Origin: Thermincola carboxydiphila | GTDB lineage: Bacteria > Bacillota > Thermincolia > Thermincolales > UBA2595 | NCBI GenBank assembly: GCA_016841045.1 | Contig: JAENZX010000003.1 | Coordinates: 147,282 to 211,281, forward strand | DNA length: 64,000 nt | Reading direction: 5' to 3' | Part shown: in pieces, positions 49,521 through 56,385 of the stretch | Layout of the letters: the number at the start of each line of letters is the position of its first letter | How positions within the stretch are numbered: position 1 is the first letter of the stretch | The notes under the pieces: generated by a model | What the model was told of the DNA's origin: nothing | Databases searched by the model: none | Seen by the model: the letters and a program-made list of their open reading frames with translations, nothing else | Translations under genes and position numbers: made by a program

Positions 49521-51755
49521 TTGGAAACAATAATTTTGGCAACAATAAAAGAAAAGAGCAATGAAGCTGTAAAAAGGATGATATTTTTGTTGCCACCTGC
49601 AATAACTTGTAAACTAACTAAAATCTTTATTTTTATTGTATTAACTGTTGTTTTAATTTTAGCAGCCAGACCTGCTGATGCAAAAATCCATAGCACCCAA
49701 CAAATGAAGGCAGATAAAGTAGTAGTTCTTGTTATTGATGATTTAGGTATTGAAGACCTCAAAAATACAACACTGAAAAACCTCAATAAGATAGCTGCAT
49801 CCAGCATAATAGGTATGATGAACACACGCACAAAGAGCTTTACTGCTCAAGGTAGACAGGATGCCTATTTGACTATTGGTATGGGAACAAGGGTGCATGT
49901 ACCCAGGTCTGGAATTGAAAATGAGACTTTTGTAGACAGTCTAAAAAAAATATATCCCAATAATGTTCCGGGTAAAATCGGAGAGGTAGCAAATAAAACA
50001 GGAAAGAGGATTGCACTTTTAGGAAACACAGATACTGACAACAAAATCAATTATACCCTACTAATGGCAATGGATAGTTTTGGATATGTGGACACAATGG
50101 AAGTTGGAAGTCAATTTTTGACGGGTAATCCGAAAGATATATGGAGCATGAGAACTGATAGTAAGAGGCTGTTGTTCTCCTGCAAAAAGGCTGTCCAAAC
50201 AAATGATATTATTTTTATTGATTTTGGCGATACAACAAGGGTAGCTGAGGCTAGAGACAGACTTGGCATAAATGGGGATGTTTTAAAAAAAATGAGGTCC
50301 CAGGCTCTGAAAAGAGCGGATAAGTTCCTTGGCGAATTTGTCAAAATCATTGATAACAAAAATGTCTTACTGTTGGTGGTTAGTCCTACCTCACCTGTGG
50401 ATAATAATTTTACCGGTATTAAAAATCTTGCCCCCGTTTTACTATACAAAAACGGAAACATAAAAGGGCTTCTTATATCAAACACCACCCGACGAGAAGG
50501 ATTAATATCAAATATTGATATTGCCCCAAGTATATTTGCGTTTTTGGGTGTGGATACCACAAAGATGCAGTTCACAGGAGAGAAAATGACAATAGTGACT
50601 GATATTGATCCCCTAAAGACTATCGGAACTAACTTTAATAAATATTCAGGTCTCAAAAAATTCCGTTACATTCTTCACGGAGTATATGTAATTTTGTTGC
50701 TTCTCGTATTTTATTATATTTATTTTCCGGTCTTACAAAAAAAGCAGCAAGTCAGTCAAAGGTTTAGCAGGGCGATTTCTGTAATGATATTTGCACTCCC
50801 AATTATTAGTTCTGTTTCTGCCTTATGGCTGCAAAATTTAACTGCAGCAGTTGCTGGTTTTTTTATCCTATTGTTATTTACAGGGTATTTTCTGTCTGTA
50901 ACCATTGAAATTTCCTTAATAGGTATGGCAACAATCAGCCTGGCAACATCAGCATTATTAATTTTTGATCTCATTACCGGGCTGGGTTGTCTGGTTAATA
51001 CGCCGCTAGGGTTTAATGACGTTTTTACCGGTGGACGTTATTACGGTATAAATAATGACAGTATGGGAATTTTGCTCGGTTCAACAGTTTTTGGAGTAAT
51101 CAGTATTCTTAAGCGATTTGCATCCAAGGTTTCCGTGCAGATTACCGTTACTGCAGGTGTCTTTTTTTTAGCGTTTTTATCTCAAACTCCAGGATTAGGA
51201 GCAAATGTCGGAGGGACCATTGCTGCAATTACTACCGGAACTTTGGCGTGTTTTATGTTGGCGTCAGGACAGCCACCTTCTATGAAAAGCCTTCTTTTAG
51301 TAATTATTTTGGCTTTAGCAGCAGAGTTTTCTATATCCTTTATGGAGACTTTATCGGCAAGCCAGACCCATGCAGGGAAAACAGTGGCTAGATTACTTTC
51401 AGATAATTTTACCAGTTATTTGATAGAAATTATCAGTTCCAAAATAAGTGTTTTTTTGGCAATGTTGATGCTTCCCCCATGGAACGTACTGTTTTTTGGG
51501 CAGCTTTATCTCTACCGAAGAGTCACAATGAGTAATTTTGATGAAATAAAAAATATCGAAATAAACGATTCATTGACTTTAAAATCATTCCAAATAATTT
51601 TATATGGCTCTTTTGCTGCACTCATTTTCAATGACACCGGAATAATTGCCGCTGCAATGATGCTTATATACTTGACTGTTCCTTTTGGAATGCTGCTGGT
51701 AAGAGAAGGATATCGTATAGATGAATATGGAGAGGCTATTACACAAAGAATATGA
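49521..51755 (+). CDS. alkaline-phosphatase-like ectodomain/polytopic membrane protein A
   Basis: A 744-residue protein. An N-terminal hydrophobic helix (~35-50) is followed by an outside domain (~60-365) with the alkaline-phosphatase superfamily pattern: KVVVLVIDDLG, AYLTIGMGT, FIDFGDTTR and SNIDIAPSIFAFLG. The usual SDH metal ligands are replaced by SPTSP (VVSPTSPVDN), so it may be inactive or use different ligands. From ~385 on there are about ten membrane segments, including GGRYYGINNDSMGILLGS. A close paralogue follows at 54100. The start is unclear; TTG at 49521 and ATG at 49578 both lack a strong site. Likely role: cell-envelope polymer assembly (inference). Confidence 0.7.
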   Translation: METIILATIKEKSNEAVKRMIFLLPPAITCKLTKIFIFIVLTVVLILAARPADAKIHSTQQMKADKVVVLVIDDLGIEDLKNTTLKNLNKIAASSIIGMMNTRTKSFTAQGRQDAYLTIGMGTRVHVPRSGIENETFVDSLKKIYPNNVPGKIGEVANKTGKRIALLGNTDTDNKINYTLLMAMDSFGYVDTMEVGSQFLTGNPKDIWSMRTDSKRLLFSCKKAVQTNDIIFIDFGDTTRVAEARDRLGINGDVLKKMRSQALKRADKFLGEFVKIIDNKNVLLLVVSPTSPVDNNFTGIKNLAPVLLYKNGNIKGLLISNTTRREGLISNIDIAPSIFAFLGVDTTKMQFTGEKMTIVTDIDPLKTIGTNFNKYSGLKKFRYILHGVYVILLLLVFYYIYFPVLQKKQQVSQRFSRAISVMIFALPIISSVSALWLQNLTAAVAGFFILLLFTGYFLSVTIEISLIGMATISLATSALLIFDLITGLGCLVNTPLGFNDVFTGGRYYGINNDSMGILLGSTVFGVISILKRFASKVSVQITVTAGVFFLAFLSQTPGLGANVGGTIAAITTGTLACFMLASGQPPSMKSLLLVIILALAAEFSISFMETLSASQTHAGKTVARLLSDNFTSYLIEIISSKISVFLAMLMLPPWNVLFFGQLYLYRRVTMSNFDEIKNIEINDSLTLKSFQIILYGSFAALIFNDTGIIAAAMMLIYLTVPFGMLLVREGYRIDEYGEAITQRI

Positions 51756-51787
51756 GGGACATTTATCATAGGAGTTGATAATATTAG

Positions 51788-52762
51788 ATGAAATATGTTT
51801 TACTTTTTTTTACCAAGACAAAACTTGGTTTATTAACAATATCAGTAATTTTAACAGCTAGTATATTATTGTTATTTGCAGGATTTTGCTTAGCTGAAGT
51901 TAAACATGGAGTTTGCTGTCCCGAAGAACTTAATTCAGTTATTTTTAGTTACTCGGAGCCTGTAGTTAAATGTGAAGAAATTACAGAAATCCAAACCGCC
52001 TTGGTGAAATTAGGGTTTTACCACGGAGAAACAACAGGAATCTTTGACAAAAAAACTGAAGAAGCTGTTAAAAAATTTCAGGTCTCCAGTAAGCTTAAAG
52101 TAGACGGGGTTTTTGGACAAAAGACACGAAATGCATTATCTGAAAAGTTTGAGAATCACTCATTAAGTGTATCCACTCGCATAGAACCTAAAGGAGAAGT
52201 TCATTTAATAATCAATGCAGACAAAAAAAGGCTGTATGTGTATGACGACAATAAGTTGATAAAAGAATTCCCGGTAGCAGTCGGAACAAAAAAAACACCG
52301 ACTCCAATAGGAGATTGGAAAATAAAAAGAAAAGCCAAGAACTGGGGAACTGGATTTGGGACCAGATGGATGGGATTAAATGTTGCTTGGGGGATTTATG
52401 GAATTCACGGTACTAATAAACCCTGGTCTATAGGGACCAGAGCCAGTCACGGCTGCATTCGGATGTTAAATCATGAAGTTGAACAGTTGTATGAATTGGT
52501 AAAAGTTGGAACACGTGTCAAGATAGAGGGCACCGTTTTTCCTGCTTATTATGAAAAAAGATTTCCGGTACACAAAGGGCACAAAGGAAGTGAGGTAGTA
52601 CTTGTACAAAAAGGCTTAATCGCAGAAGGGTATTTAAAAGGAGAACCCGACGGAATTTTTGGTCAGGCAACAGAAGATGCGTTAAAAAAGCTTCAAAAAG
52701 ACAAAGGTTTCGAAGTTACTGGACAAGTAGACACAGACATTTGGGGAGTACTTGGATTATAA
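51788..52762 (+). CDS. L,D-transpeptidase with two peptidoglycan-binding domains
   Basis: A 324-residue secreted enzyme. A signal/anchor helix (LGLLTISVILTASILLLFAG) leads to a PG_binding_1 domain near 62-120 (ALVKLGFYHGETTGIFD...). The YkuD catalytic domain spans ~138-255 and carries the active-site motif HGTNKPWSIGTRASHGCIRM (in two parts), with the nucleophile Cys near 222. A second PG_binding_1 domain near 265-322 (LIAEGYLKGEPDGIFG) closes the protein. It would cross-link peptidoglycan through L,D bonds. It lies between two envelope genes and the spacing to the first is 32 bp, so co-transcription is likely. Confidence 0.92.
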   Translation: MKYVLLFFTKTKLGLLTISVILTASILLLFAGFCLAEVKHGVCCPEELNSVIFSYSEPVVKCEEITEIQTALVKLGFYHGETTGIFDKKTEEAVKKFQVSSKLKVDGVFGQKTRNALSEKFENHSLSVSTRIEPKGEVHLIINADKKRLYVYDDNKLIKEFPVAVGTKKTPTPIGDWKIKRKAKNWGTGFGTRWMGLNVAWGIYGIHGTNKPWSIGTRASHGCIRMLNHEVEQLYELVKVGTRVKIEGTVFPAYYEKRFPVHKGHKGSEVVLVQKGLIAEGYLKGEPDGIFGQATEDALKKLQKDKGFEVTGQVDTDIWGVLGL

Positions 52763-52779
52763 ATATTTACCGATAGTGA

Positions 52780-52812
52780 GGATGGGATTAGAAACCCATC
52801 CCTTTAATCTTT
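52780..52812 (+). terminator. weak terminator after the L,D-transpeptidase gene
   Basis: GGATGGG and CCCATCC form a 7-bp stem with an 8-nt loop, followed by CTTTAATCTTTC, which is only moderately T-rich. Confidence 0.5.
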
Positions 52813-52910
52813 CACGAAAGATTTGAAAATACTCAAATTGGCTAAAATATAACAATAATGTTTTAGACAGGATGAACGAAACAGGAAAACATTGACAGGG
52901 GGATTAATCT

Positions 52911-54071
52911 ATTACTTCCGCAAACATAAATGGTTTTAAAATACTTCACGTTATAAGACCGGCTGAAGGTGGAATGAAAACCCACCTGTTAGAATTGTTA
53001 CAGGGTCTGAGAAAACGCGGGTTTAATGTTGAAACAGCATGCCCGAGCAATTCTGCTCTCTTTAATGAAGTATCTGGAATGGGTATTAAGACTCACCCTG
53101 TAAATATTGTCGGACCAATCAGCCCTAAGGATGATGTTATATGTATAAATCAGTTGAGAAAAATAATCTTAGCTGGCGATTATGACATTATTCATTTTCA
53201 TGGTTCAAAGGCCGGGATGGTTGGAAGAATTGCTGCTCTTTCAGCAAGGTATAAGAATAATGTGATGACTGTTCATAATTTTATAATTTATCAGGAAGTA
53301 AATCCAGCCCAAAGGGTGTTATTCAAATATGGTGAAAAACTTTTAAGCACAGCCACATCAAAGATAATAACTGTTTCTGCGGCACTAAAGAATGATTTGG
53401 TAAAGAATTTTGGAATTCCGGAGAAAAAAATAGTATCTATTTATAATGGGATTGACATACACAAATATTCTGATACTTGTGATGGAATAAAAACGAGGGA
53501 GAAATACGGCTTAAATACTGACGCTTTGATTGTGGGTACCCTGGCCAGAATGGCTCCGCAAAAGGGACTGGAATACTTCATTAAGGCTATTCCACTTATA
53601 CAGAAAAACACTAATACTAAATATATTATTGCTGGAGACGGTCCGCTGCTGCCTTTATTAAAATCACAGGCCACGGAGCTTGGGTTAAGTGAAAGACTAT
53701 CTTTTACCGGACATGTGGAAAACGTACCTGAGTTCTTATCTTGTCTGGATATTTTTGTGGTACCATCAATAGCAGAGGGGTTATCCATAACGACAATTGA
53801 AGCCATGAGTGTCGGCCTGCCTGTAATTGCTTCTAGGACGGGTGGGCTCCCTGAACTTGTTAAACACGGAGAAACCGGCCTGCTGGTGGAGCCAAGAGAC
53901 CCGGCGAAGTTAGCACAAGCAGTAACTGAACTGCTTATTAACAAGAATAAACGACAGCTAATGGGGCTGTATGCTCATAAAAAAGCTTCGGAAATGTTCA
54001 GCCTTGAGACAATGATCGGTGAAACATGCCGAGTTTACGATGAAATTATAACAGATTCCGCATACTTGTAG
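52911..54071 (+). CDS. GT4 family glycosyltransferase, ATT start
   Basis: A ~386-residue GT-B glycosyltransferase. The frame before the first ATG (52974) encodes GFKILHVIRPAEGGMKTHLL, the standard GT4 N terminus with the donor-loop glycines. So the gene must begin further upstream, yet the frame has only ATT at 52911 before its stop at 52905. ATT at 52911 is about seven bases after AGGGGG. The C-terminal half has GTLARMAPQKGLEYFIKAIP near 202 and FVVPSIAEGLSITTIEAMS near 280-298, the E-x7-E donor motif. It likely transfers a sugar from an NDP donor to a lipid or wall polymer. The ATT start is inferred. Confidence 0.8.
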   Translation: MTSANINGFKILHVIRPAEGGMKTHLLELLQGLRKRGFNVETACPSNSALFNEVSGMGIKTHPVNIVGPISPKDDVICINQLRKIILAGDYDIIHFHGSKAGMVGRIAALSARYKNNVMTVHNFIIYQEVNPAQRVLFKYGEKLLSTATSKIITVSAALKNDLVKNFGIPEKKIVSIYNGIDIHKYSDTCDGIKTREKYGLNTDALIVGTLARMAPQKGLEYFIKAIPLIQKNTNTKYIIAGDGPLLPLLKSQATELGLSERLSFTGHVENVPEFLSCLDIFVVPSIAEGLSITTIEAMSVGLPVIASRTGGLPELVKHGETGLLVEPRDPAKLAQAVTELLINKNKRQLMGLYAHKKASEMFSLETMIGETCRVYDEIITDSAYL

Positions 54072-54099
54072 TATGTTTAGGATACCAGGGAGTGTAATC

Positions 54100-56385
54100 A
54101 TGAAAAAAAATGCAATGCGTATCAAAATTATGCTTTTTACTGCAGTTCTGATTTTGTCGCTAATAACATTTTACATTGCTTCAATTCCGTTCGCAGCTGG
54201 TGAAATCATTAATGGTTCAATTCAGAAAACCGGTAGAGTTGTAATGGTCGTCATTGACCAGTTATCATGGGATGATGTTTCAGGTAATAATTTACCCGTT
54301 ACTAGAAAAATAATTTCCTCAGGCGCAGTAGGGCTAATGACAACAAATCCTGGAGCAGGAGGGCTTAGAACACCTGAAAACACTTATGCTACCATTGGTG
54401 CCGGTACAAAGATATTGGGAGGAGATTCTGGAGGAGATGGGTTTAACGTCTGGGAAGAATATGAAAACGGAAAGGCAGAAATATCTTATTTCAGGCGCAC
54501 TGGAAGAAAAGCAGACGGTCAAGTGGTTAACGTCGGAATAGCCCAAATAGAAACAGCCAACAGAAACCTCAACTATAACTATGTCCCCGGTTCCATCGGG
54601 ACAGTTCTCCACCGGTATGGCGTTAAAACCGGCGTTATTGGGAATTCCGATGTCTTCGGACTACAGGAAAGAGATAAATTCAGACGTTATGCGGTAAATA
54701 TTGCGATGGACAGAAACGGTCAGGTTGACTATGGTGAAGTGGGTTCTTCATGTTTGACCCCAGACGAGGCTTTCTTAGGTGGCTTTAGGTCTGATTATAG
54801 TTTTTTATTAAAAAAATTCAGAGAAATAAAAGATTATGCAGGCTTTTTAGTCATTGATACAGGTGACATCTCTCGTCTAGAGAGTCAAGGTACTCTGGCT
54901 TCTGCCGCAGTCCTCCAAAATCAAAAGAAAAATACCTTAGCCCGCATAGATGTTTTTCTTGGGGAATTATTGCAAGAGGTCGACCTTAGTAAAGACCTGC
55001 TAATGATTGTAGTTCCAGGTCCCTCTTACCAATCCATGAACAACGGTGACTTTCTGACTCCTTTCTTTATGGCAGGTAAAGGTGTTAAGCAGGGGATAGT
55101 TTATTCAGGCACTACCAGACGTGATGGACTTATATCCAATACCGATATAGCTGCAACAGTGGTTGATTTTTTTGGATTTCCGCCTGTTGTAAAAGGTACC
55201 AGGGATAAAAAGGATATTATATTAGGGGGGCAAGTAATTGCTGGAAACCCATCAGTACACCCTGTAGATGAGGTCTCTGTTTTGAGCAAGAAAACAATGT
55301 TTATGCATAATACCAGGTACCCGTTTGTAAAAACATATATAAATCTCTGCCTTATAATATTGACAGTGTCAGTAGCGGCTATTAAGCTTGATATAAAGGC
55401 AGGGGGGGTGATTAAACCTATCTTGCTGGCAGTGACCTTTATCCCTGCAGTTTATCTGCTGGCTGATTTAATGTCCCATTTTTCGCAGGGAATAGTCGGT
55501 CTGCTGATGAGTTTAATAACTCTGGCTATGGTTTTATTCTCAATTTATTTATCTAAAACCTTACGTTTTAGTCCATTTCTGATAAGCAGTGGGTTAACAA
55601 CAGCACTTTTAATATTTGATATTTTCAGCGGTGGGAATCTCTCAAAAACCTCTCCCCTCAGTTATGATGCAACAGCAGGTGCCAGATTTTACGGGATAGG
55701 GAACGAATATATGGGTGTTCTAATTGGTGCAGCTATTACCTTTATAACTCTTTCTCTGGAAAAGTTCAGGTCGGGCATTTCTTTGGCAGCTAAAATTGCA
55801 GTTACACTTATTAGTTTAATTGTGGTATACACTATTTCTGCCCCAAACCTTGGCACTAATGCCGGAGGAGCAATTGCCTCCATTGCCGGTTTAGGCACTG
55901 CGGGAATCATCCTTTACGGCAGAAAATTCAGTTTAAAAACATTAGCACCTATTGCTGTGGTTACTGTCTCTGTTCTTACGATGTTTGTTATCTTTGATTT
56001 TACCAGATCTGTCGAAACACAATCACATATGGGGCGAACTTTAGGACTAATTCAACAAAACGGAGTTAGCGAAATTTTATCTATCGTTAGCAGGAAAACA
56101 GAGATTAACTTAAAACTTATTAAATATACCACCTGGAGCTGGTATTTCTTTCTAAGCCTAGGAGTTATCGTTTTTCGGCACAGACTGTTTCCCTGCGAAA
56201 TAGAACAGTGGGAGGAGCAGAATCCCTGGCTCAACAGAATGCTGCCCGGGATTGTTGCAGGTTGTCTGGCAGCCCTGATTTTCAACGATTCTGGTGTAGT
56301 TGCGTCAGCAACAATGATTAGCTTCGGAATCCCCCCAATTTTATGGAGCTTAATTCAAACTAAGGAGAGGACAGTGCAACAATGA
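54100..56385 (+). CDS. alkaline-phosphatase-like ectodomain/polytopic membrane protein B
   Basis: A 761-residue paralogue of the gene at 49521. After the first helix (IMLFTAVLILSLITFYIASI) the outside domain carries VVMVVIDQLSWDD, ENTYATIGAGT, FLVIDTGDISRLES and TRRDGLISNTDIAATVVDFFG, spread over residues ~45-380. The Asp-His pair is again absent: the segment reads MIVVPGPSYQSM. The membrane half has about ten helices and the paralogous GARFYGIGNEYMGVLIGAA motif. ATG at 54100 has AGGGAG seven bases upstream; ATG at 54073 does not. It overlaps hslO by four bases. Both paralogues together suggest a heteromeric or two-step envelope function. Confidence 0.72.
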   Translation: MKKNAMRIKIMLFTAVLILSLITFYIASIPFAAGEIINGSIQKTGRVVMVVIDQLSWDDVSGNNLPVTRKIISSGAVGLMTTNPGAGGLRTPENTYATIGAGTKILGGDSGGDGFNVWEEYENGKAEISYFRRTGRKADGQVVNVGIAQIETANRNLNYNYVPGSIGTVLHRYGVKTGVIGNSDVFGLQERDKFRRYAVNIAMDRNGQVDYGEVGSSCLTPDEAFLGGFRSDYSFLLKKFREIKDYAGFLVIDTGDISRLESQGTLASAAVLQNQKKNTLARIDVFLGELLQEVDLSKDLLMIVVPGPSYQSMNNGDFLTPFFMAGKGVKQGIVYSGTTRRDGLISNTDIAATVVDFFGFPPVVKGTRDKKDIILGGQVIAGNPSVHPVDEVSVLSKKTMFMHNTRYPFVKTYINLCLIILTVSVAAIKLDIKAGGVIKPILLAVTFIPAVYLLADLMSHFSQGIVGLLMSLITLAMVLFSIYLSKTLRFSPFLISSGLTTALLIFDIFSGGNLSKTSPLSYDATAGARFYGIGNEYMGVLIGAAITFITLSLEKFRSGISLAAKIAVTLISLIVVYTISAPNLGTNAGGAIASIAGLGTAGIILYGRKFSLKTLAPIAVVTVSVLTMFVIFDFTRSVETQSHMGRTLGLIQQNGVSEILSIVSRKTEINLKLIKYTTWSWYFFLSLGVIVFRHRLFPCEIEQWEEQNPWLNRMLPGIVAGCLAALIFNDSGVVASATMISFGIPPILWSLIQTKERTVQQ

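Follow-up and report, generated by a model that had tools for sequence, protein, structure and literature searches.

The window, that is the whole 64,000-nucleotide stretch of Thermincola carboxydiphila DNA that was analyzed, contains two related genes, P1 and P2, each encoding an ectodomain resembling the alkaline phosphatase superfamily (AlkP) and a polytopic membrane half. They flank the genes of an L,D-transpeptidase (LDT) and a GT4 glycosyltransferase (Table 1), an arrangement claimed in the original prediction and borne out by Pfam matches and the open reading frames between P1 and P2. The LDT carries PG_binding_1 domains at its N- and C-terminal ends, and its catalytic motif SHGCIR is intact. 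Ahead of the N-terminal strand of the GT4, no canonical start codon was found (52898–52980). The true start is likely the ATT at 52911, 8 nt after GGGGG, which would restore the N-terminal strand KILHVIRPAEGG; read from this codon, the protein comprises 386 aa, and the median length of its homologues is 385 aa. The next in-frame ATG of P2 corresponds to a protein of 761 aa.

A second terminator-like hairpin was detected by pattern scan upstream of P1 (49433–49459). GT4 and P2 are separated by a single base, and P2 overlaps hslO by 4 bases. Because of this spacing and the hairpin after the LDT gene, the genes are probably organized in two transcription units, P1-LDT and GT4-P2-hslO.

Table 1. 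Features of the P1–P2 locus (positions in the window)
Feature	Position	Strand	Description	Basis
P1	49521..51755	+	744 aa, TTG start; N-terminal anchor, pseudo-AlkP ectodomain, membrane half ~50604-51728	Intact ORF
GGRYYGINND	51030..51059	+	P1 form of the GARFYGIGNE motif	
LDT	51788..52762	+	L,D-transpeptidase	Pfam: YkuD E 1.5e-25; PG_binding_1 E 2.1e-34
Terminator-like hairpin	52780..52801	+	Between LDT and GT4 genes	Pattern scan; by itself no evidence of function
GT4	52911..54071	+	Glycosyltransferase; canonical ORF 52974-54071, ATG	Pfam: Glycos_transf_1 E 1.2e-43
P2	54073..56385	+	770 aa, ATG start, typical family member	Intact ORF
P2 pseudo-AlkP ectodomain	54235..55254	+	Approximately residues 55-394	
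PGPS	55015..55026	+	P2 315-318, at the place of the metal-binding Asp-His pair	hhalign vs iPGM
P2 membrane half	55255..56382	+	Residues 395-770, candidate GT-C_B-like catalytic domain	Model; weak profile likeness
GARFYGIGNE	55678..55707	+	P2 536-545	
QSH	56020..56028	+	P2 650-652	
RK	56092..56097	+	P2 674-675 (Ser-Lys in P1)	
NDSG	56284..56295	+	P2 738-741, predicted outer-face loop before last helix	Model

Distribution of the family and its gene neighborhood

P1 and P2 align end to end with 27% identity (E 5e-62). P2-like proteins were found in 30 of 41 relatives, in 135 of 200 genomes sampled from the host phylum (a few weak partial matches among them), and, in a sample taken around an Actinomycetota genome, in 47 of 101 (several partial). 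They are encoded on several hundred named contigs (at least 534 confirmed), and the named hosts include Thermincola, Desulfofundulus, Ammonifex, Thermoanaerobacter, and Halanaerobacter. Because the same architecture and motifs were found again in hundreds of genomes, the architecture of P1 and P2 is far beyond chance. The family appears to be undescribed in the libraries and papers searched. Pfam gave only weak AlkP-superfamily matches and NCBIfam none, neither holding a model for the family; the sequence search of the PDB yielded no homologue, the viral structure library no match, and PHROGs nothing useful. No description was found in the literature searched.

Clostridioides difficile possesses one family member, located downstream of radA-disA. 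The C. difficile record NZ_CP033217.1 (locus L143) is labeled as a 109 kb plasmid and carries fusA-like, ctsR-clpC, radA, and disA genes; it may be a chromosomal fragment. At another locus (L021, G023:C1:769311-773744), a single open frame of 1494 aa spans two complete family members, in what appears to be a tandem fusion; the same was seen in genome G125.

Most genomes encode a P2-type protein and no P1. The original prediction of an undescribed pair of membrane factors for a wall or exopolymer was right as to the absence of a description in the sources searched and as to the genomic context; since most genomes have the P2-type protein without P1, the family does not form a two-protein system in general. 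The eight P1 sequences form one clade (support 1.0). Where the contig allows, the gene order is HDOD-P1-LDT, followed by GT4, polysaccharide deacetylase, or other genes, and then by P2; within the host lineage, the LDT gene always separates P1 from P2. At near-invariant sites (P2 numbering), the P1 clade shows changes of R674 to S, A, or Q, of N679 to F, of E545 to D, and of G543 to N. P1 retains R538, N544, H652, K675, and the ND-G motif and lacks R674 and N679. These shared changes mark P1, by its sequence, as a lineage-specific, altered relative of P2.

In 50 of 80 named loci, the direct neighbor of the family gene, on the same strand, is a homologue of the window's GT4 gene; among loci with both neighbors visible, the adjacency amounts to 46 of 71. 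Thermoanaerobacterium saccharolyticum (locus L072) is one species in which the P2 homologue and its GT4 are direct neighbors. Of the GT4 and YkuD association raised in the original prediction, the GT4 part is general and the YkuD part is confined to the host's own lineage. Recurring neighbors of the family are genes for GT2, PMT_2, polysaccharide deacetylase, SteA/SteB, and L,D-transpeptidase. Neighborhoods with menaquinone genes, AdoMet decarboxylase, tig-clpP-clpX-lon, and hslO are conserved only within sublineages and were regarded as incidental. Within the host's family, a polysaccharide deacetylase gene replaces GT4 between LDT and P2 at four loci (L348, L350, L351, L035). A third family copy, absent from the host, was found in the same bacterial family beside a PMT_2 glycosyltransferase gene and tig-clpP-clpX (L355-L361).

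Conservation in the ectodomain and the membrane half

The assignment of the ectodomain to the AlkP superfamily is well supported by fold and profile homology. The nearest profile match of the family ectodomain was iPGM (hhalign, P 5e-10), and the top Foldseek entries were PH0037, ENPP7, LtaS, phosphopentomutase, and alkaline phosphatase. Together with the end-to-end alignment and the helices of the structure model, these matches confirm the predicted paralogs with an AlkP-superfamily ectodomain and a polytopic membrane half. A Sulfatase match over the cut-off was not obtained for P1 or P2 in Pfam. The short motifs named beforehand (VIDD/VIDQ, DIA, SPTSP/PGPS, and GGRYYGINN/GARFYGIGN) were all present as described.

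Residue conservation was counted over 130 non-redundant family members and is given in P2 numbering. In the ectodomain, D62 is kept in 110 members, D265 in 127, and R268 in 129, and D358 also persists. The two-metal site of the superfamily (Asp, nucleophile, Asp/His, Asp-His pair, His) was found to be incomplete by both hhalign and conservation. The Asp-His metal pair has given way to other residues, usually Pro (at position 315, the place of the Asp, in 107 of 130). Neither a conserved His nor a conserved AlkP nucleophile was detected in the 130 ectodomains, and the commonest His, H180, occurs in 41. Because the Asp-His pair is gone and a conserved ectodomain His is missing, the metal enzyme appears, from these alignments, to be dead family-wide. 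The degenerate metal site described in the original prediction is thus genuine as regards the missing ligands, but it is not peculiar to P1 and P2. An assignment as LTA synthase or as an intact AlkP enzyme was rejected because the metal ligands are missing. LtaS and other AlkP-superfamily membrane transferases resemble the family in being membrane proteins of Gram-positive-type bacteria with an AlkP ectodomain. The family differs from them in the loss of metal ligands and nucleophile and in the position of the ectodomain, which precedes the main membrane domain instead of following it.

The strictest conservation lies in the membrane half and comprises D516, GAR538xYGxGN544E, P591xxGxxxGG, H652, R674K675, and ND739SG. 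R538, N544, G594, H652, and K675 are invariant (130 of 130), and W688 and D739 are present in 129, D516 in 128, and R674 in 127 members. This pattern suggests that the membrane half is more likely than the ectodomain to be the enzyme. The GAR motif, which had been called unassignable, is one of the most conserved parts of the family and lies in this half.

The structure model of full-length P2 reached a pLDDT of 87.2 and a pTM of 0.85; for the membrane half modeled alone from 107 sequences, the values were 95.4 and 0.94. The model of the membrane half contains approximately 11 helices, in the order GAR loop, two helices, P-x-x-G loop, two helices, long QSH and RK loop, two helices, NDSG, and one helix. 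Apart from one extra N-terminal helix, the predicted succession can be reconciled with the SEDS layout. Assuming an external ectodomain, we infer from the helix order and the basic loops that every invariant polar residue would be located in predicted outer loops. The QSH...RK...W stretch covers membrane-half residues 250-294, near the C-terminus, and is probably also on the outer side.

Relationship of the membrane half to known families

Pfam gave no family match to the 107 membrane halves beyond isolated chance matches, and the curated profiles PF01098 (SEDS) and PF04932 (Wzy_C) did not match P1, P2, or any of the 107 membrane halves. Because these curated profiles were tested and did not match, the family was not filed under SEDS or O-antigen ligase. 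In hhalign, the membrane half scored 33.9 with SEDS and 29.4 with Wzy_C, with P values of only about 1e-3. Reversed profiles of the same runs scored 16.5-24.0, and the positive control SEDS versus Wzy_C scored 62. With earlier, smaller profiles, one reversed control reached 28. In global mode, Wzy_C gave a P of 3.8e-4, and its reversed control was nearly as good (P 2e-3). The SEDS alignment covered 187 columns with the motifs in the expected order, and a different SEDS profile gave another register. Foldseek against the PDB returned RodA chains as the sole matches with a probability above 0.5 among the best 50, at a nonsignificant E of 0.34 or worse and a TM of about 0.4. Since the E-values were not significant and one alignment was in another register, a firm SEDS identity was rejected. 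A characterized LTA-synthase or polymerase family was, consistent with the original prediction, not matched significantly, and the resemblance to SEDS and Wzy_C is weak. A MurJ-like flippase (PF03023; score 14.3, P 0.58), a PMT_2-like GT-C_A protein (PF13231; 16.6, P 0.36), and UbiA (14.1) were rejected for want of hhalign profile similarity.

SEDS proteins (RodA/FtsW/SpoVE, PF01098, CAZy GT119) provide the best, though not statistically significant, solved fold match. They share with the family a similar succession of helices, the GA-R, P-x-L-G, and Q-S motifs aligned in matching order, conserved residues on the (here predicted) outer face, and work beside an extracytoplasmic wall domain. In contrast to SEDS, the family has no Pfam match, one extra N-terminal helix, a fused AlkP domain, usually a GT4 neighbor, and QSH and RK in place of the TDF aspartate loop. 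A confident alignment of the SEDS outer-loop Asp with an Asp of the family was not obtained; this loop holds H652, K675, and W688, which are invariant or nearly so. With O-antigen ligase and Wzy_C (PF04932, CAZy GT121 and related), the family has in common an R...N motif before a helix, an invariant His, positive residues on the (here predicted) outer face, and weak profile similarity. It differs in the lack of a Pfam match and in its occurrence in Gram-positive-type lineages beside GT4 and, in one lineage, L,D-transpeptidase. The order of Arg and His also differs, R-H-RK here versus R-R-H in O-antigen ligase, which speaks against a GT-C_B assignment.

For clan GT-C1, a survey of lipid-diphosphate glycosyltransferases describes conserved outer-face residues, a long loop close to the C-terminus, Arg residues positioned at the diphosphate, and activation of the acceptor by His, Asp, or Glu (PMC10920833). 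The outer-face residues and the long loop would fit the modeled topology of P2. Candidates for the Arg and acceptor-activator residues of clan GT-C1 / GT-C_B are conserved in the family (R538, R674, H652, D739, and D516), and the corresponding roles in P2 are plausible assignments only. The data are consistent with a GT-C_B fold of the membrane half, as a lead and not as proof.

Possible role in glycan assembly outside the cell

Fold class, topology, catalysis, and substrate of P2, and its partnership with P1, are what we infer here. With a probability of roughly 0.5, P2 belongs to the GT-C_B-like enzymes (SEDS / O-antigen ligase / Wzy superfamily) or is a close analogue of them in function; with a dead AlkP domain as its fusion partner, it would polymerize or ligate a lipid-linked glycan. 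The cytoplasmic GT4 encoded next to it would attach a sugar to a lipid-linked precursor. Once the product is exported, P2 would use its membrane half to polymerize the glycan on the outside or to pass it to a wall acceptor there. R538 and R674/K675 may hold the lipid diphosphate, and H652 or one of the Asp residues may activate the acceptor. The AlkP-fold ectodomain, having lost its metal chemistry, would bind the acceptor or have a regulatory function. P1, linked to the L,D-transpeptidase, is probably either an altered partner of P2 or a copy that acts on a different acceptor. Such a protein would be analogous to RodA-PBP2 type synthases, in which a membrane polymerase is joined to an outer domain, the outer domain here being a fused pseudo-AlkP domain and not a transpeptidase.

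The position of the invariant polar residues, in the membrane half and not in the ectodomain of the 130 members, supports the GT-C_B-like reading, as do the confident membrane model, the RodA matches, the hhalign scores with SEDS and Wzy_C, the GT-C1-like outer-face features, and the frequent GT4 and other glycan-related neighbors. It speaks against the view that the ectodomain is an AlkP enzyme with a rebuilt site (LTA-synthase-like, GPI ethanolamine-phosphate-transferase-like, or a phosphodiesterase), the membrane half being only an anchor or lipid-substrate site. This is the least probable of the alternatives: the persistence of D62, D265, R268, and D358, the presence of LtaS among the Foldseek matches, and a layout resembling PIG-N/PIG-O, which consist of an AlkP domain and many helices, agree with it, but the replacement of the Asp-His pair by Pro, the lack of a conserved ectodomain His or nucleophile, and the stronger conservation of the membrane half do not.

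Somewhat less improbable, but still unlikely, is a flippase or exporter function of the membrane half for the lipid-linked glycan made by GT4, with the ectodomain receiving or guiding the exported glycan. A polytopic protein adjoining glycosyltransferases would suit such a function, and the invariant basic residues could bind a lipid diphosphate. However, the lack of profile similarity to MurJ, the absence of a transporter fold of meaningful probability among the best 50 Foldseek PDB matches, and the prediction of all conserved residues on one face only argue against it. A similarly low probability is assigned to a non-catalytic organizer of wall synthesis or cell separation, in which the AlkP domain and the membrane half act as binding modules. 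The dead ectodomain, the SteA/SteB neighborhood in Actinobacteria and Tepidanaerobacteraceae, and the loss of otherwise near-invariant residues in P1 would be explained by this, but R, N, H, K, and D residues that stay strictly invariant across two phyla are found more typically in active sites than in scaffolds.

If the polymerase or ligase reading is right, the family works like SEDS or O-antigen-ligase enzymes. It combines a strictly conserved, predicted outer-face site with a conserved glycosyltransferase partner and yet the libraries searched give it neither a family name nor a function, although it occurs in approximately two thirds of the genomes sampled from one phylum and in about half of the Actinomycetota sample. 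Provided that it makes a glycan, these bacteria would possess an unrecognized pathway for a wall or surface polymer. A more far-reaching and tentative proposal is that the family constitutes a new clan of extracytoplasmic enzymes that polymerize or ligate glycans and contain a pseudo-AlkP domain for acceptor binding or regulation. Together with GT4, this clan would make an undescribed wall glycan in Clostridia-like Firmicutes and Actinobacteria and would be tied to cell separation via the SteA/SteB neighborhood. Under the same proviso, this neighborhood offers a direct, testable link to cell separation.

Two publications assign SteA and SteB to cell separation in Corynebacterineae (PMC6705760, PMC12977500). 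Some actinobacterial loci have the order recN-steA-mctB(steB)-GT2-GT4-family-x-pyrG, and in four Tepidanaerobacteraceae loci steA and its neighbors are divergent from the family gene. SteA and SteB are other proteins, are absent from the window, and share with the family only this neighborhood in some Actinobacteria and Tepidanaerobacteraceae. The actinobacterial loci encode, between the family gene and pyrG, a protein of 291 aa without a Pfam match (L172:11608-12480), relatives of which adjoin the Tepidanaerobacteraceae family copies.
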